The notes under the pieces are model-generated. The model did not search any database. It saw only the letters and a program-made list of their open reading frames with translations, and was not told where the DNA came from. Shown here piece after piece: positions 44,870-51,807 of a stretch of DNA of 64,000 bases (positions within the stretch are counted from its first letter, which is position 1; each line of letters starts with the position of its first letter). The stretch is from NCBI GenBank assembly GCA_017483465.1, contig JAFUWN010000005.1:62001-126000 (forward strand). The letters are read 5' to 3'. A program made the translations under genes and the position numbers. Source of the DNA: Oscillospiraceae bacterium. Its GTDB lineage: Bacteria > Bacillota > Clostridia > Oscillospirales > Ruminococcaceae.

Positions 44870-44923
44870 GTTTTTTCATCAAAACTTTTCAAAACTTGTA
44901 CTCTTCCGTACATTTTTTCCCTT

Positions 44924-44942
44924 TTTCACGCTGTTAGTGAAA
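44924..44942 (+). promoter_or_regulatory. Small inverted repeat over the module's first ribosome-binding site
   Basis: TTTCAC-GCTGTTA-GTGAAA (44924-44929 and 44937-44942), ending at AAGGAGG of the terminase small subunit gene. It could be a repressor site or an RNA hairpin that limits ribosome access. No consensus -35/-10 pair was found between the terminator and this point. Confidence 0.4.
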
Positions 44943-44957
44943 GGAGGTCGCTCTCTT

Positions 44958-45269
44958 ATGAGTAAAAAATCAGATACGCAGCTCGTCATTGACGGCCTTA
45001 AAAAATTAGCTTTCGGAAAAGTCAATGATGCTGTTACCCTTGCATTCGCTGAAGAGATTCCGCCCCCTGAACTCCTCGCTAAAATGCGGCTGTTCAATAT
45101 CTCCTCCGTCAAACGGGTCAAAGGCGGCGGCGTGGAAGTCCAGTTCTTCGACAGACAAAAGGCTCTCGAAAAACTCTACGAATATGCCCTCGCCAATCAG
45201 AACGGCAAAATTTCTGAAAGCCTTCTGAAAGCACTTTCCGATTCCGGAGCTGATGACCTTGCTGTTTGA
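44958..45269 (+). CDS. Phage terminase small subunit-like protein
   Basis: This 103-residue protein starts MSKKSDTQLVIDGLKKLAFG, with KVNDAVTLAF and GGGVEVQFFDRQKALEKLYE. The last motif (a DRxKALExL helix) is typical of small terminase subunits of the PBSX/XtmA type. Small subunits recognise phage DNA and load the large subunit. It is at the short end for the family, and the N-terminal HTH is weak. The ATG at 44958 follows AAGGAGG. It overlaps the large subunit gene by 17 bases. Confidence 0.72.
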   Translation: MSKKSDTQLVIDGLKKLAFGKVNDAVTLAFAEEIPPPELLAKMRLFNISSVKRVKGGGVEVQFFDRQKALEKLYEYALANQNGKISESLLKALSDSGADDLAV

Positions 45270-46506
45270 TGCTTTCTCCCAAAAACAAAGACTCGCTCTC
45301 CAATGGTGGGCTTTGCCGGATTACTGTCATTTTGATGCCATTATCTGTGACGGGGCTGTCAGAAGCGGCAAAACATTTTCCATGTCCCTCAGTTTCGTCT
45401 GCTGGGCAATGACACATTTTCAGAACACTTCTTTTGCAATCTGCGGCAAAACTATCACATCTGCTGAACGCAACCTCATCCGTCCGCTCGTCTTTCTCCT
45501 TCAGGATGCCGGCTTTCATGTCAAAGAATCCCTCAGCAAACATTATCTTGATATTACAGCTGTCGGAATTACTAACCGCTTTTATCTCTTCGGCGGCAAA
45601 GATGAAAGCTCTGCTTCTATGATTCAGGGCATGACGCTCGGCGGTGTCCTCTTTGATGAAGTCGTTCTTATGCCCCGTTCTTTTGTGGAACAGGCTGTTG
45701 CAAGATGCTCTCTCTCCCGTGCGAAGCTCTGGTTTAACTGCAACCCCGAAAACCCTTACCATTGGTTCTATCAGGAATGGATTCTGAAAAAAGATTCCAA
45801 AAATGCTCTCTATCTCCATTTCACTATGGACGACAACCCCTCTCTTTCCCCGGAAGTCAAAGAACGCTATCAACGCATGTATGCAGGTGTATTCTATGAC
45901 AGATTCGTTCTCGGAAAATGGACAGTCTCCGAAGGCGTTGTCTATCCGATGTTTGATCAGAAACAACATGTCGTTCATGTTCTTCCCGATTCTTTTTCCC
46001 GTTATGTCCTTTCCTGTGACTACGGCACGGTTAACCCCACTTCTGTCGGACTCTGGGGCGAATCTGACGGCATCTGGTACAGAATCAAAGAATATTACTA
46101 CGATTCCCGCAAAGAAGGCATTCAGAAAACCGATGAAGAACATTATACTGCTCTCGAACTCCTGGCCGGTTCCCTCCCTGTTGAATGCATTATTGTTGAC
46201 CCTTCGGCGGCCAGTTTTATCGCCTGTATCCGTTCCCATCAGAAATTCAAAGTCATCAAGGCTCAGAATGATGTGCTTTCCGGTATCCAGCATGTCAGCG
46301 ATATGCTCTCCAAAAACAAACTTCTCTTTCATGACTCCTGTCATGATATTCTCAGAGAATTTACGCAGTACTGCTGGGATTCCGGCTCGGTCAAAGATTC
46401 TCCTAAAAAAGAATCCGATCATGCAATGGATGATATGCGTTATTTTGTCAGTACTATCCTTTTCGGCAGATCAGACAGTTTCTTTGCTGTCTCTCTCAAA
46501 CGCTGA
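45253..46506 (+). CDS. Phage terminase large subunit
   Basis: This 417-residue packaging motor has the Walker A motif CDGAVRSGKTFSMSL (residues about 31-45), Walker B GVLFDEVVL and a C-terminal RNase H-like nuclease with three acidic sites: LSCDYGTVNPTS, IIVDPSAASF and DHAMDDMRYFV. All catalytic residues appear intact, so it could package DNA. It belongs to the terminase-3/PBSX type. It starts inside the small subunit gene. Codon use matches the neighbouring chromosomal genes, including pyrimidine-rich silent sites. Confidence 0.92.
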   Translation: MTLLFDAFSQKQRLALQWWALPDYCHFDAIICDGAVRSGKTFSMSLSFVCWAMTHFQNTSFAICGKTITSAERNLIRPLVFLLQDAGFHVKESLSKHYLDITAVGITNRFYLFGGKDESSASMIQGMTLGGVLFDEVVLMPRSFVEQAVARCSLSRAKLWFNCNPENPYHWFYQEWILKKDSKNALYLHFTMDDNPSLSPEVKERYQRMYAGVFYDRFVLGKWTVSEGVVYPMFDQKQHVVHVLPDSFSRYVLSCDYGTVNPTSVGLWGESDGIWYRIKEYYYDSRKEGIQKTDEEHYTALELLAGSLPVECIIVDPSAASFIACIRSHQKFKVIKAQNDVLSGIQHVSDMLSKNKLLFHDSCHDILREFTQYCWDSGSVKDSPKKESDHAMDDMRYFVSTILFGRSDSFFAVSLKR

Positions 46507-46535
46507 TCTTTATCAGAAAGGAGTGATTTCTCTTT

Positions 46536-47648
46536 ATGCACCCGGAAAAAAATTCCCTTCTCCCTGCTGTGCAAACCGCAGGTTCCCGTTCTGTCTATGA
46601 CTTTCCTGTCTATCTCTATTCTTATGACCTGTTCGATAAAGTCCGCAGAACTGTCCCCATTATCGATGCCGCTGTCTCTAAACTCATCCGGCTGATCGGT
46701 TCTTTTCAAATCCGGTGTTCTGATCAGAAACAACAGCAGGCTCTTGACAATTTCTTCCGCAATGTTCCGGTAGGCCTCACAGGGCAGTCTGTCTACAGCT
46801 TTCTTGATTCCTATCTTGACAGCCTGCTGATTTACGGAAACGCTGTCGGTGAAATCGTGCTCGATCAGAAAAATTCCTATATCGCCGGTCTCTGGAACGG
46901 CAATATTGCCGATATTGCTGTTGTTCCCGGTTCTTCTCCTATGGAACGCCAGTATTTCCTGCATACGCAGGACGGCGACCGGCTTCTCCCTCATCCTGAC
47001 CGGATTCTCTTTTCCGCTCTCAAACCGCCAAGCGGCGGCATTTACGGCATTTCCCTCCTCCAGGGCATTCCGGCTCTTGCCGATATTCTGCTCAGAATCT
47101 ATGAATCTGTCGGCCAGAATTTCGACAGGGCAGGCAATATCCGCTATGCTGTCACGTATAAACCCTCAGATTCTTCCGATTTTGCTTATGCAAAAGAACG
47201 TGCCGAAACAATTGCTCAGGAATGGTCCGCCGGTATGCAGGCTGCTAAATGCGGTGAAATCCGGGATTTTGTCTCTGTCGGTGATATTGATATCAAAGTC
47301 ATCGGTGCAGATTCTGAAATGCCTTCTACAGAAATTCCCGTCCGGCAGCTTCTGGAACAAATCCTTTCCAAACTTTCTGTTCCGCCTTTCCTGCTCGGAC
47401 TCAGCTGGTCTTCTACCGAACGCATGTCTGTGCAGCAGGCTGATATTCTCACTTCCGAACTGGAATATTACCGCCGTCTCCTTGAACCTGTTATCCGGAA
47501 AATTGCCCTTGCTTTTCTTCAGCTCAACGGTTCGTTCTCTGAAGTTTCCATTCTCTGGGATCATATCAACCTTCAGGACGAAATTGAACTTGCTCAGGCA
47601 AGACTTTATTCTGCTCAGGCTCAGGAAATCGAACAAAATCTTAATTAA
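46536..47648 (+). CDS. Phage portal protein
   Basis: This 370-residue protein carries the portal-family core: YSYDLFDKVRRTVPIIDAAV, IYGNAVGEIVLD, SGGIYGISLLQGI and LSVPPFLLGLSWSSTERMSV. It ends in a helical C-terminus (LAQARLYSAQAQEIEQNL). Portals form the dodecameric ring through which the terminase packs DNA. It is shorter than many portals (450-500), lacking the long C-terminal barrel. The ATG follows AAAGGAG. Confidence 0.88.
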   Translation: MHPEKNSLLPAVQTAGSRSVYDFPVYLYSYDLFDKVRRTVPIIDAAVSKLIRLIGSFQIRCSDQKQQQALDNFFRNVPVGLTGQSVYSFLDSYLDSLLIYGNAVGEIVLDQKNSYIAGLWNGNIADIAVVPGSSPMERQYFLHTQDGDRLLPHPDRILFSALKPPSGGIYGISLLQGIPALADILLRIYESVGQNFDRAGNIRYAVTYKPSDSSDFAYAKERAETIAQEWSAGMQAAKCGEIRDFVSVGDIDIKVIGADSEMPSTEIPVRQLLEQILSKLSVPPFLLGLSWSSTERMSVQQADILTSELEYYRRLLEPVIRKIALAFLQLNGSFSEVSILWDHINLQDEIELAQARLYSAQAQEIEQNLN

Positions 47649-47674
47649 TCCCTTTCACATGGAGGTATCTTTTT

Positions 47675-48652
47675 ATGTATCAGTATGAAACAATCAAACT
47701 CGAAAAAGGCATGTATCATCTCACCAACAAGAGCTTTTTGCAGGCTCTGGAAGATGCTGACCCGTCTTCTTTCTATCATAATTCTCCTCTTGCCAAACTC
47801 GATGCTTACGAACGTCAGCTCAAACGCTTTGATATTCATGTTTCCGGCGGAAACTGCGACAGAGTTGAAAAATTCTTCACTACTACCGAAAGTGCCGTAT
47901 TATTCCCTGAATTTGTCCGCCGTGCCGTCATGCAGGGAATGGAAGAATCTGTGCTTCCGCAGATTACTGCCGCTGTTTCCCGATGCGATTCCAATCGTTA
48001 TCAGGGCTGTGACCTGACCGATACGGCAAGCTATACCACAACCAATGCCGGCTCTGCTCTGCCTGTTTCTTCCATTCTGGAAAGTTCTTCCGTCATTACT
48101 CTGGAAAAATACGGCAGAAATATTCGGGCTTCTTATGAAGCGATCCGTCAGCAGAGACTTGACGTATTCGCTCTCATGCTCCGCAGAATCGGCCGCCGCC
48201 TTGCCGATTCCGTTACTTCCAAGGCTGTCACTGTCCTCAAAACTTCCGCCAACAATTCTTCCAAAATTACAGTTGCTGCCAATTCTCTGGACTATTCCAA
48301 TCTGGCTGCCCTGTACGGGAATTTCACTAACTTCAACATGAAAGCAATGCTGGCTGCTCCTGCGATTATGGCTAAAATCCTCGTTATGAACCAGATGATT
48401 GAAACTTCTTCCCAGGATGTGACAGAAATCCGCCTGCCGTTCGGCACCAAACTCATCAACTGTCCTCAGCTGGATAATAACACCATCCTCGGCATTGATA
48501 CGGATTTTGCTCTGGAACAGATTCAGAGCAGTGACATCATCCTGGAAACCGACAAGCTCATTGACAATCAGCTTGATTCTATTACGGTTTCTGTCAATAT
48601 CTCCTTCCGCACGCTCATGACCGATGCTGTCAAAATGATTGCTCTGACCTGA
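47675..48652 (+). CDS. Phage major capsid protein
   Basis: This 325-residue protein has features of HK97-fold capsid proteins: a central NAGSALPVSSILESSSVITL region, a helical RQQRLDVFALMLRRIGRRLA spine, AMLAAPAIMAKILVMNQMI and an ending in ISFRTLMTDAVKMIAL. It has no long cleavable delta domain at the N-terminus. It lies between portal and protease genes, an order reversed from the usual portal-protease-capsid. The ATG follows ATGGAGG. Confidence 0.78.
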   Translation: MYQYETIKLEKGMYHLTNKSFLQALEDADPSSFYHNSPLAKLDAYERQLKRFDIHVSGGNCDRVEKFFTTTESAVLFPEFVRRAVMQGMEESVLPQITAAVSRCDSNRYQGCDLTDTASYTTTNAGSALPVSSILESSSVITLEKYGRNIRASYEAIRQQRLDVFALMLRRIGRRLADSVTSKAVTVLKTSANNSSKITVAANSLDYSNLAALYGNFTNFNMKAMLAAPAIMAKILVMNQMIETSSQDVTEIRLPFGTKLINCPQLDNNTILGIDTDFALEQIQSSDIILETDKLIDNQLDSITVSVNISFRTLMTDAVKMIALT

Positions 48653-48723
48653 TTTTTGCAGAGAGATTCTTTCTCTCTGCTCTCCTGATTTATTTTATCT
48701 TACTATGAAAGGACTGTCAGCTT

Positions 48724-49530
48724 ATGACACCTATTGAAAAAATCAATCAATTTACACGCCGGGAACTTTCCGAAGAGGAAGTCTATCTTTTTGATATTAT
48801 CCTCTGTGACAATGATATTGACAGAGATCTGGAGTGTTTCTCTGAAAATGCCCTTGCTCAGATGCAGAAACTCTTTATCGGCAAAACCGGTATTTTTGAT
48901 CATAATCTCCAGTCTGCCGGACAAACTGCAAGAATCTATGATACCGAACTTGTCAGATCTCCGGATCAGAAAACCAAAGACGGCAGAACTCTGCTTTCTC
49001 TCAAAGCACATGCCTATATGATCCGCACAGATTCCAATCTTGATTTTATCAAAGAAATCGATGCCGGTATCAAAAAAGAAGTCAGTGTTTCCTGCTCTGC
49101 CGGAAAACGGCTTTGTTCTGTCTGCGGTACTGATAAAGCTCAGTCCTGCTGCAATCATATCGCCGGTAAAAAATACGGTCAGAAATCCTGCTATACAATC
49201 CTGGAAGATATTCAGGATGCCTATGAATGGAGCTTTGTTGCCGTTCCTGCTCAGCCTGCTGCCGGAGTTACCAAATATTTCAAAAACGCTTCTTCTTCCG
49301 CTCCTGATACGGAACTCTCCGAACTCCTCAGCGATCTCGAACAGCAGACACGCTCCGAAGTGCTTGCTCTGTGCAGAAATCAGTCTCAGGAACCTGTTTC
49401 CAAAGCTCTCTGTATCGCTGCCGAAAAAATGGACCTCCGTGAACTCGTTCAGTTTAAAAAATCCCTGATCGAACAGGAACACTCTCTCAGTCAGGCCGCT
49501 GTACAGCTTGCCGATTTCCGTCAGAAATAA
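48724..49530 (+). CDS. Putative prohead protease (XkdF-like) with a cysteine cluster
   Basis: This 268-residue protein starts with IEKINQFTRRELSEEEVYLF and contains a FDHNLQSAGQTARIYDTEL segment, an IKKEVSVSCSAGK strand and EWSFVAVPAQPAAGVTKYF. The order matches XkdF-type head maturation proteases. A cluster of cysteines and a histidine (CSVCGTDKAQSCCNHIAG, then SC) follows the presumed serine-site strand and could bind a metal. It also has a helical C-terminal tail that could act as a scaffold. A classic Ser-His-Asp triad was not confirmed. Confidence 0.6.
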   Translation: MTPIEKINQFTRRELSEEEVYLFDIILCDNDIDRDLECFSENALAQMQKLFIGKTGIFDHNLQSAGQTARIYDTELVRSPDQKTKDGRTLLSLKAHAYMIRTDSNLDFIKEIDAGIKKEVSVSCSAGKRLCSVCGTDKAQSCCNHIAGKKYGQKSCYTILEDIQDAYEWSFVAVPAQPAAGVTKYFKNASSSAPDTELSELLSDLEQQTRSEVLALCRNQSQEPVSKALCIAAEKMDLRELVQFKKSLIEQEHSLSQAAVQLADFRQK

Positions 49531-49569
49531 TCTTTTCTTCCCTATTCCCTGTAAAGGAGGTTCTGCTTT

Positions 49570-49926
49570 ATGGATATGCAGATGATCTATTCTCTTTTCC
49601 GGCTCTTCTCCGGTGAACAGGATGCCGAAACGTATATGCCCCTTCTGCTTACTTCTGTCGAAGAAGTGAAAACCTGCCTGAAAAATTCCGAAGATATTCA
49701 GGAAATCCGGCTTTGCTATCTCGCTGCCGCTGTTGCCAATCTCCGTTATACACAGCTGTACGGAGCCAGAGAAAAAGCTCTTGCCACGTATGCCGGCAAT
49801 CTTTCAAGCGAATCTGACCTCTCCCATCAGATTCGCTTTGCCGAACAGCTTGTCAATTCTTATAAAGCTCTCTGTTCTGACCTGCTCAAAGAACAGAATT
49901 TCTTCTTCTTCGGTGTCAGGGGGTGA
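49570..49926 (+). CDS. Head-tail connector-like protein
   Basis: This 118-residue, all-helical protein is placed where phage connector (gp6/YqbG-like) genes lie. YLAAAVANLRYTQLYGAREK resembles the central helix of that family. Assignment is mainly by position, length and predicted helix content. The ATG follows AAAGGAGG, and the stop overlaps the next frame. Confidence 0.45.
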   Translation: MDMQMIYSLFRLFSGEQDAETYMPLLLTSVEEVKTCLKNSEDIQEIRLCYLAAAVANLRYTQLYGAREKALATYAGNLSSESDLSHQIRFAEQLVNSYKALCSDLLKEQNFFFFGVRG

Positions 49927-49931
49927 AGCTC

Positions 49932-50357
49932 ATGAACGAATTACTCACCCTCTTTCTTGCTCTTCTCAAAAATCAGCAGAATTCTTCCCGTTTTGAAGTC
50001 TGTTCCTCGTTTGATGCTGTTCCGGTCTCTTCCAAATCCCGGAAATTATTTGTTGTCGTTTCTCCCGAATCTATGAAACTCAGTCAGCCGTTTTCCGGTT
50101 CTTCCGGGCAGATCGCCCCGTTTACGGCTGATTTCCGCTTCTATGTCCTCGCCCCGATGACAACGCCTTCTGAACAGCTTCTGCAATTTTTCTATTCTGT
50201 TCTTGTGCCTGCTCTGCATGACGAAAACTGTTTCCTCTATGAGATGCAGGCCGATGCCCCCAAAGCAGATTATAAACTTCAGAAACTTGTTTATTCTGCT
50301 GTATTCCGTATCAAAGGCCTTTGGATGCCGGACAGTCAGGAGGCTGAAACTCTATGA
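49932..50357 (+). CDS. Phage structural protein, minor connector or tail-terminator-like
   Basis: This 141-residue protein starts at the ATG at 49932, six bases after AGGGGGTG; a GTG at 49923 overlaps that site. Not recognised by motif. It is a mixed alpha/beta protein (SRKLFVVVSPESMKLSQPF, then FTADFRFYVLAPMTTPSEQL), the fold style of small head-completion or tail-terminator proteins. It overlaps the following gene by four bases (ATGA). Confidence 0.4.
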   Translation: MNELLTLFLALLKNQQNSSRFEVCSSFDAVPVSSKSRKLFVVVSPESMKLSQPFSGSSGQIAPFTADFRFYVLAPMTTPSEQLLQFFYSVLVPALHDENCFLYEMQADAPKADYKLQKLVYSAVFRIKGLWMPDSQEAETL

Positions 50358-50743
50358 GCTATCTGATTCAGAAACGCAAGTATTTCCCTGTTACTTTTGA
50401 TACTCTGACAATCTTTCTTTCCGATTATCAGATTTCCGGAAGCAGTACCCTCAAAGAATCCTGTACAGCAGACGGTTCTGCTGTACTGACTGCATACTGG
50501 AAACAGGGCAGCCGCCTTAAATTAAAAGGCAAACTCTCTCCCGATCTTTCTCCTGAACAGGTGCTCCTGCATCTGCTGCAAAATATGCTGACTCCCCAGA
50601 CTTTTACTCTCGGCAGTCTCTCGTTTTCCAATGCCAGACTCTGCGGCTATACACTCGCTGAACAGCAGGACACACCCGAATTATCTTTATTATTCTACTG
50701 TCCTGAAGCTCCCTCTCTGATACAGGAGGAACCTTCCGCATGA
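50354..50743 (+). CDS. Phage structural protein, unknown role
   Basis: This 129-residue protein starts at an ATG that overlaps the preceding stop and ends in a four-base overlap with the next gene. It is beta-rich (TFDTLTIFLSDYQISGSSTL, then FTLGSLSFSNARLCGYTLAE). This would fit a small tail or baseplate-type component, but no family was recognised. Placing it in the module rests on coupling and shared orientation. Confidence 0.4.
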   Translation: MSYLIQKRKYFPVTFDTLTIFLSDYQISGSSTLKESCTADGSAVLTAYWKQGSRLKLKGKLSPDLSPEQVLLHLLQNMLTPQTFTLGSLSFSNARLCGYTLAEQQDTPELSLLFYCPEAPSLIQEEPSA

Positions 50744-51663
50744 ATCAGAATCTAACTCTTTATCTGTTCGGCAATCAGGCCGCTGTCAGAATTGTTCCCT
50801 GTCTTTCGTTTTCTCTGGAACGGGAGGCCTATACGCCTTTTGAATCCGTAACGGCTGAGTTCCTTTCTGACCGGTCTGATTATTCCAATATAGAACGGCT
50901 TGCAATTTACCGTGACCAGGAACAAATCTTTTTTGGTCTTGCCGATTCTGTTCAGCAATATCATAAAAATCATCTTTCTTTTGTCAGAATTACTTCCCGG
51001 AGTTTTCCCTCCCTTCTTACTCAGAACGAACTGGAACCCGGTCTGCACAGTAACCTGACAATTGCTTCCCTGATGACAGACTTCTATCAGTTCCCGCAGA
51101 TCACGTATGAAAATTTTTCCGGAACAGGTTATATTTTCGTCAAATCCGGCAATACTATGTGGGACGGTGTTGTCAGCTTCGGCTATAAACTCACAGGACA
51201 TTACCCTTATATCCAGCATAATCATATCTGCCTTTCTGCTCCGCAGGACAGTACACCCCTGCAATTTTCAGAATCTCAGGTTCTGGAATACGGCTCCTGT
51301 CTGGATACTACCAAACTGATCAGCCATTATCATATGGAAGACATCAACGGCACTCCTGACAGCTACAGTCAGGCAAATCCGGCAGCAGCAGCTTTTTCTA
51401 TTGTCCGCCATAAACAAATCCCTTTTGACCGCTCTTTTCTTCACGACCCTGATGATGCTCTCACGTTCCGGAACCTCTATTCCCGAAGAGGCAGTCAGGC
51501 AGATTATCTTGTCTACTCTGGATTTCAGAACGAACTGATCGGCCAGAAATTCTCTTTCGGCAATCTATTCCAGAATCAGACAATCTGCCGTGTCAGAACC
51601 ACATTCGGACAAAACGGATTCCGTACCAAACTCTGGAGCTATCATGACGGATTTTATCCTTAA
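50740..51663 (+). CDS. Tail-hub or late-control-D-like protein
   Basis: This 307-residue protein begins MNQNLTLYLFGNQAAVRIVP, followed by TAEFLSDRSDYSNIERLAIY. A central block (HSNLTIASLMTDFYQFPQIT, FVKSGNTMWDGVVSFGYKLT) echoes the XkdQ/gpD baseplate hub of PBSX-like phages, which forms the spike base. It is the last clear gene of the module. A hub with no tube, sheath or tape measure nearby is odd, so it may have another structural role. Confidence in the family is moderate. Confidence 0.5.
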   Translation: MNQNLTLYLFGNQAAVRIVPCLSFSLEREAYTPFESVTAEFLSDRSDYSNIERLAIYRDQEQIFFGLADSVQQYHKNHLSFVRITSRSFPSLLTQNELEPGLHSNLTIASLMTDFYQFPQITYENFSGTGYIFVKSGNTMWDGVVSFGYKLTGHYPYIQHNHICLSAPQDSTPLQFSESQVLEYGSCLDTTKLISHYHMEDINGTPDSYSQANPAAAAFSIVRHKQIPFDRSFLHDPDDALTFRNLYSRRGSQADYLVYSGFQNELIGQKFSFGNLFQNQTICRVRTTFGQNGFRTKLWSYHDGFYP

Positions 51664-51727
51664 CAATTCCAGCCGCTGCACGGCTGTTTCTATACAGCAT
51701 ATCCATCCAGCCGCAGCTTCCGGATGA
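51644..51727 (+). CDS. Possible 27-residue protein overlapping the hub gene
   Basis: ATG at 51644, five bases after GGAG, overlaps the hub gene by 20 bases and reads MTDFILNNSSRCTAVSIQHI then HPAAASG and stop. An ATGA at 51724-51727 begins another short frame. The tight overlap copies the style of the preceding genes, so this may be a tiny gene or the stump of a deleted one. Confidence 0.3.
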   Translation: MTDFILNNSSRCTAVSIQHIHPAAASG

Positions 51728-51764: not shown

Positions 51765-51807
51765 AAATGTCTCTTTACTGTCAGATACAGTAAAGAGACA
51801 TTTTTTT
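51765..51807 (+). terminator. Terminator closing the phage-derived module
   Basis: 16-bp perfect arms AAATGTCTCTTTACTG / CAGTAAAGAGACATTT (51765-51780 and 51788-51803) with a 7-base loop, then a T-run. It stands between the module and the convergent spoVS. Confidence 0.92.

Follow-up and report, generated by a model that had tools for sequence, protein, structure and literature searches.

A minimal phage head cassette fixed in a rumen Ruminococcus-like genus: a likely gene transfer agent with a dispersed regulon

We analyzed a stretch of 64,000 nucleotides from an Oscillospiraceae bacterium (GCA_017483465.1, contig JAFUWN010000005.1, positions 62,001 to 126,000; hereafter the window), part of a source genome of 2.9 Mb in 118 contigs. 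The window carries a cassette of nine plus-strand genes (44958–51663, ~6.7 kb; Table 1) for a phage-type head and its packaging machinery, and the likely reading is that a prophage remnant was domesticated here and now serves as a gene transfer agent (GTA) whose regulon is dispersed. The cassette is inherited with its host and appears to have a switch in common with scattered partner genes, so its host probably makes particles by which the host's own DNA reaches neighbouring cells.

Three features expected of a GTA were found. Head and DNA-packaging genes are recognized by profiles and by a match in the Protein Data Bank (PDB). The cassette shows lineage fixation, vertical inheritance and purifying selection. 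Its structural genes stand without an integration or replication module; at a separate locus, the cassette's promoter also precedes a replication-initiator-like gene. The proposal of the initial annotation that this is a domesticated packaging device has held up, in the tests against an active prophage as in those of inheritance and selection.

Fixation and vertical inheritance of the cassette

The cassette is fixed in its lineage, vertically inherited and under purifying selection. The host group is a Ruminococcus-like genus of the rumen and herbivore gut, represented by 38 genomes, 12 of them of good quality (at least 90% complete). The hub gene that ends the cassette is single-copy in 36 of the 38 genomes (12/12 of good quality), and the portal gene was found in 33 of the 36 other same-genus genomes, with one match each. 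All nine genes keep their order in 28 of the 36 genus loci read; six loci are cut by contig ends, G006 has no detectable c129 gene and G001 is without TerL, portal and capsid genes. The radical-SAM/rlmH flank is retained in 14 of the 36 loci, with spoVS on the opposite side in nine, and in the remaining loci the cassette lies at other chromosomal sites or at contig ends.

Trees of the concatenated cassette and of GyrA, built for 27 genomes, have 16 of 24 splits in common. The cassette tree recovers 15 of 18 supported GyrA splits and conflicts with two supported ones (Mantel r 0.82; 0/5000 permutations). The ratio of nonsynonymous to synonymous substitution rates (dN/dS, median over pairs with dS < 1.5) is 0.15 for TerL, 0.16 for the portal, 0.17 for the capsid protein, 0.18 for the protease-like protein and 0.25 for TerS, rising to 0.27 for c118, 0.34 for the hub, 0.49 for c144 and 0.54 for c129; reference values for eight housekeeping genes are 0.08–0.13. 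Codon use correlates at 0.973 with ten host genes and at 0.867 with six prophage-like genes of the same genome, in line with the host-like usage described initially.

The cassette sits between an rlmH/radical-SAM side and a spoVS/ymdB side, and the flanking genes are housekeeping genes by Pfam (EPSP_synthase/MurA-type, metallo-beta-lactamase, SPOUT_MTase [RlmH], Radical_SAM, YmdB and SpoVS). No integration or replication module accompanies the structural genes, integrase being judged from the flanking genes without a genome-wide search. No att-like repeat was seen among the 20 direct-repeat families shown out of 46, all of them imperfect, as the initial annotation had noted for the edges. That annotation doubted an active prophage, and inheritance, selection and flanks agree with it. 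The comparison in relatives that it proposed returned conserved order and purifying selection, and what it had named as refuting evidence (an adjoining integrase or tail module, patchy presence, relaxed selection) was examined, with outcomes that speak against an active prophage.

Relatives extend well beyond the genus. Of 295 genomes drawn evenly from the order, 43 matched the portal profile, once each, three with an internal stop codon; 16 family-mates gave no portal match, and Faecalibacterium may be among these. A scan of named genomes yielded at least 560 confirmed relatives. The best 80 of these are mostly labelled Ruminococcus, Oscillospiraceae or Clostridia, with two under the name Alistipes and four R. 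flavefaciens isolates, and R. flavefaciens FD-1 and ATCC 19208 have the full set of nine genes; the nine-gene order of the window recurs in 58 of the 80 (13 of those 58 near a contig end), and the protease-like gene precedes the capsid gene in five of the best-80 loci that have both genes visible. Six records in phage collections match the portal, namely five unannotated faecal scaffolds and one Microcystis phage (28%), and true phages with such a head may be among them. Portal relatives also lie on two faecal scaffolds labelled 'UNVERIFIED Bacteriophage sp.' (MT835508 and MT835769), which may stem from true phages or from host DNA that elements of this kind had packaged. Two 4-kb 'viral' contigs in IMG/VR are fragments of the genus-type cassette; virus catalogues therefore include it.

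A promoter common to the cassette and scattered genes

The cassette is preceded by a composite promoter made up of a dyad (TGTAC-N6-GTACA), a 16–17 nt spacer, GCTRTTAG and a Shine-Dalgarno sequence. The same dyad lies 44–46 nt upstream of the start codons of a tail-tip gene and a DUF6291 gene elsewhere in the chromosome, and we infer that these scattered genes are co-regulated with the cassette.

A perfect dyad is present in 16 of 25 cassette upstream regions of the genus (shuffles: mean 0.5, maximum 3). Nine regions have none by this count: those of G003 and G032 have arms that pair perfectly as TGTAT/ATACA and were excluded by the GC filter, those of G035, G008, G029, G022 and G028 carry a mismatch, and in G019 and G034 about one half remains. 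The arms vary among species (TGTAC/GTACA, TGCAC/GTGCA, TGTAT/ATACA) and change mostly in step, which fits a site whose two arms are recognized together. In other genera such a perfect dyad occurs at 32 of 73 loci (shuffles: mean 2.0, maximum 7) and is absent from 41, including most of the baseplate-bearing ones described below.

Across seven genomes, TGTACN6GTACA occurs at 34 exact sites, as against 10 for the reversed pattern. GAARGGR follows at a fixed distance after 19 of the 34, and these 19 promoters precede four gene classes only: six cassettes, six tail-tip genes, five DUF6291 genes and two regulator genes. The element pattern was derived from promoters already seen, with six of its 13 occurrences in loci picked for the dyad; the remaining seven are cassette promoters, five of them with a perfect dyad. 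Dyads on contigs C41, C47 and C105 of the window's genome were rejected as regulon promoters because the second element is absent.

The tail-tip gene has the promoter in six of the seven genomes searched, the window's own included. It stands alone, between purA- and ackA-side genes, and encodes ~130–194 residues with a C-terminal Pfam Phage_tail_C domain (4e-11 and 4e-8; complete copies scanned). The DUF6291 gene, whose PHROGs relatives are replication initiation proteins, has the promoter at five sites in three of the seven genomes, again including the window's own; in G018 and G020 such genes stand at two separate loci (L271, L277, L279, L285, L289). A sigma-like regulator gene that carries the promoter itself was found in two of the seven genomes. 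It encodes ~150 residues with a weak match to sigma region 4 and matches to phrog_36 'transcriptional regulator' (2e-13, 3e-10), and RinA-type late activators offer a parallel to this candidate. In L079 (genus g34), the composite promoter occurs three times around the cassette, at 1464, 3755 and 12226, in repeat-looking DNA.

Lysis genes have such a promoter in some species. In another branch of the genus, a holin and a glucosaminidase-LysM endolysin lie behind that branch's own dyad in G002, G009 and G004, with a dyad loop in G009 identical to that of its cassette, and a fibre-like gene in G030 also has the promoter. Altogether, three of ten holin neighbourhoods carry it. The initial statement that tail and lysis genes are missing is thus correct for the locus itself, and incomplete for the genomes, where the tail-tip gene and, in some species, the holin-endolysin pair stand elsewhere behind the same promoter.

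The tape-measure family PF10145 occurs in 22 of the 38 genomes (up to six per genome; 4/12 of good quality) and was rejected as a cassette partner, its patchy and multiple copies being read as prophage genes. Further TerL copies in the window's genome (58% on C76; 34% on C23 and C100) were likewise set aside, as they lie in prophage-like DNA, with a tape measure on C76. The PF05105 holin is also patchy (23/38). A fibre-like N-terminus next to some isolated holins (13/38 genomes) is not a general partner, because it also occurs on a tape-measure contig of the window's genome. At L182 (5092–7184), isolated fibre-like, holin and Phage_lysozyme2 genes stand without the dyad promoter.

Gene products, layout and longer relatives

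Profiles assign TerL, portal and capsid firmly. TerL matches Terminase_6N (1e-13) and the PDB large terminase 5oe8 (2e-149); its Walker B motif and aspartates 256, 316, 393 and 394 are invariant in 32/32 genomes and the Walker lysine in 31/31 with data, so the retention of Walker and nuclease residues noted at first in the window holds across the genus. TerS matches Terminase_2 weakly (9e-4, under that profile's cut-off), covering profile positions 61–130 versus 7–128 for R. flavefaciens TerS; the absent part is presumably the DNA-binding helix-turn-helix. With the start chosen by the Shine-Dalgarno sequence, TerS has 98–106 residues in 17 of 20 genus loci, a range that excludes L052, L054 and L087 (start codon without Shine-Dalgarno; deletion remnant). 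Short forms also occur outside the genus (L059, L082, L041).

The hub profile matches PDB entry 3d37, '43 kDa tail protein' (6e-4), and phrog_177 'baseplate hub' is matched by three of 23 hub relatives, the window's hub itself giving no match. The label 'XkdF-like protease' given to the fifth gene product did not stand: profile searches matched it to no protease profile, and only its position and residues His60 and Ser121, invariant in 35/35 genomes, favour such a role. The same protein has a Cys/His cluster (C124, C131, C134, C143, H145) invariant in 18/18 aligned relatives, which resembles a small zinc-binding insert. Adaptor, terminator-like and hub-adaptor roles are putative assignments from position and sub-threshold matches. 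PDB searches with c129, c118, capsid and portal returned nothing usable, and matches of cassette proteins to RecA and nonribosomal peptide synthetases were judged spurious.

The open reading frames and gene block agree with those first described. TerS and TerL overlap by 17 nt, the last four genes are linked by four-base stop/start overlaps, and AGGAGG precedes the TerS start. The strong terminator reported to close the block exists as a 17-pair hairpin, beyond the end first given for the block (51727); a hairpin at 51670–51686 has six pairs only.

Table 1. Cassette genes and associated signals, in window coordinates
Feature	Position	Strand	Evidence or remark
Promoter dyad TGTAC-TCTTCC-GTACA	44897..44912	+	Candidate activator or operator site; 45 nt before TerS start codon
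Conserved GCTGTTAGTGAAAGG element, -10-like plus start of Shine-Dalgarno	44930..44944	+	17 nt after dyad
TerS, small terminase, 103 aa	44958..45269	+	Without N-terminal part present in R. flavefaciens
TerL, large terminase, 417 aa	45253..46506	+	Profile and PDB matches
Portal, 370 aa	46536..47648	+	PF04860 6e-14; phrog_30703 2.9e-132
Major capsid protein, 325 aa	47675..48652	+	PF25209 1e-16; phrog_3922 major head protein 3e-64
Head protease or scaffold-like protein, 268 aa	48724..49530	+	phrog_16951 (unknown function); putative role from position and His/Ser
c118, head-tail adaptor-like	49570..49926	+	Weak: 1/17 relatives matches phrog_541 head-tail adaptor, E 0.005
c144, tail-terminator-like	49923..50357	+	Non-significant: best PDB matches of profile are three lambda gpU chains, E 0.31–0.67
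c129, hub adaptor-like	50354..50743	+	Position alone; no profile match
Hub, gp27/Mu 43-kDa-like, 307 aa	50740..51663	+	PDB profile match and relatives
Terminator-like hairpin, 17 pairs, closing the cassette	51765..51803	+	Hairpin pairing

Longer cassettes suggest where this form came from. L081, from another family of the order, has homologous TerS, TerL, portal, protease-like, capsid and hub genes, with one copy per genome. After the head genes come a LysM protein, the hub, a sheath-initiator/gp25-like gene (below cut-off), Baseplate_J (5e-48) and a Gp48-type gene; its scanned genes gave no sheath, tube or tape-measure match. L082 and L059 resemble it by gene map. In these longer cassettes the protease-like gene precedes the capsid gene, a LysM adaptor is present, and the hub is followed by gp25-like, Baseplate_J and Gp48-type genes, whereas the Ruminococcus form ends at the hub. 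The phage ancestor therefore probably had a contractile tail, later reduced to a baseplate on the head, and the Ruminococcus form probably lost the baseplate wedge as well. TerS shortening runs parallel to baseplate loss, R. flavefaciens TerS being fuller than the window's.

Baseplate_J (PF04865) is found in 0/38 genus genomes (a positive control matched in 3/14), and L081 Baseplate_J as query found nothing in the window's own genome. Sheath, tube and baseplate wedge genes are all missing from the cassette, sheath and tube having been sought without a genome-wide search. PBSX of Bacillus subtilis is a chromosomal, phage-derived element with a terminase-portal-capsid set. The cassette is like it in these respects and differs in having no sheath, tube or baseplate wedge and in ending with the hub. 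The suggestion that the block is a remnant of a PBSX-like element is therefore not supported, given the genus-wide absence of Baseplate_J and a baseplate-bearing relative, L081, with no sheath, tube or tape-measure match among the genes scanned.

Mechanism, counterparts and alternatives

In the mechanism that we propose, a host signal would lead a regulator, for which the sigma-region-4-like protein is a candidate, to bind the dyad and switch the set on. Procapsids would assemble on the portal, and TerS without its DNA-binding part would leave TerL to pack host DNA headful by headful, with no fixed start site. The adaptor, terminator-like protein and hub would seal the head, forming a tip that is very short and has no sheath, and the tail-tip protein would be added to this tip; holin and endolysin would then lyse the cell, and the particle would deliver host DNA to relatives.

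Several observations weigh against a GTA. Particles, packaging and transfer are deduced from genes alone. In the window's own genome the regulon members found are the cassette, the tail-tip gene and the DUF6291 gene only; the regulator gene was not found there, nor was a PF05105 holin. Six of the ten holin neighbourhoods are without the promoter, and a seventh (G021) has the dyad at a different spacing. In the PDB, the profiles of the capsid and portal proteins matched no phage structure. The tail-end genes evolve fast, c129 reaching 1.03 in one pair. Two genomes (G005 and G031, 77–79% complete) have no portal or hub match, the portal of G009 contains TAG, and G001 has lost its three genes between TerS and the protease-like gene (L087, on the 144-kb contig C2).

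Among published systems, FpGTA of Faecalibacterium prausnitzii (2026) comes closest, likened here by description rather than by sequence. In the passages of that paper available to us, FpGTA has 40-nm heads with ~8.5 kb of host DNA and no visible tail, a TerS with no obvious DNA-binding domain, and two operons, in which terminase, portal and capsid genes stand apart from fibre and lysis genes (PMC12946183). The cassette is similar in its bacterial family (by name), in a head operon separate from its partners and in a TerS without the presumed DNA-binding part. It differs in its nine-gene, 6.7-kb size, in partners that stand singly or in pairs at several loci, in a recognized common promoter and in having no Baseplate_J in the genus, where FpGTA II has a baseplate. 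The same passages describe 4.6-kb packaging in R. callidus and name no locus for it (PMC12946183).

In RcGTA of Rhodobacter capsulatus, one activator binds structural, own and lysis promoters, and a structural cluster is switched on together with scattered fibre, spike and lysis genes, as far as the passages used here describe it (PMC6363796). The cassette with its scattered partners would be alike in function, not in genealogy; it belongs to another phylum, and its regulator is a candidate.

We tentatively go further and suggest, as an idea that may well prove wrong in part or whole, a new Ruminococcus GTA family with a sheathless, tubeless particle, its head closed directly by adaptor, terminator-like protein and hub. 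Since the dyad sequence differs between lineages, the promoter is proposed to co-evolve with its regulator, and the locus could lie behind the R. callidus 4.6-kb packaging. The DUF6291 replication-initiator-like gene could raise the copy number of a chosen chromosomal region ahead of packaging, an effect that run-off replication has for the Bartonella GTA.

An unlikely alternative is a domesticated killer particle, whose head packs host DNA and which, as for PBSX, kills relatives and delivers nothing, through altruistic release. The hub, c129 and c144 do evolve faster than the head genes, as for parts that meet other strains, and the FpGTA authors leave this option open for their particle in the passages available (PMC12946183). 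However, known tailocin-type killing uses a sheath and tube, which the cassette does not have, the genus has no Baseplate_J, and the invariant terminase residues would be hard to explain.

A satellite or packaging parasite that depends on a helper and takes its tails from resident prophages is very improbable. The cassette itself encodes neither tail tube nor sheath, and many genomes of the genus have tail genes of prophages, but those genes are patchy (4/12 good-quality genomes) where the cassette is universal (12/12). It also has its own hub and a tail tip behind the common promoter, and no integrase (judged from flanking genes), att site or patchy presence marks it as a satellite; housekeeping flanks and inheritance with the host make the capsid-forming kind unlikely. 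Hardly more credible is a functionless prophage remnant, whether recent or decaying, which could account for the G001 deletion and the single TAG-bearing portal, and which dN/dS, open frames, conserved order, the promoter and the dispersed regulon all oppose.

GTAs are known from few lineages, and PMC12946183, in the passages available, is the only description of one in this family within the open-access literature searched. Within that literature, the minimal Ruminococcus cassette, its genus-wide fixation and the dispersed regulon with its promoter are new. The promoter offers a DNA signature for locating missing GTA parts where homology fails, and the cassette is a candidate locus for GTA-like packaging in human-gut Ruminococcus, for which no locus has been assigned. 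The series from baseplate-bearing to minimal cassettes illustrates how a phage can be reduced to a device for packaging and delivery. If the GTA reading is true, gene flow among major fibre-degrading bacteria of the rumen, an economically important community, would become testable.

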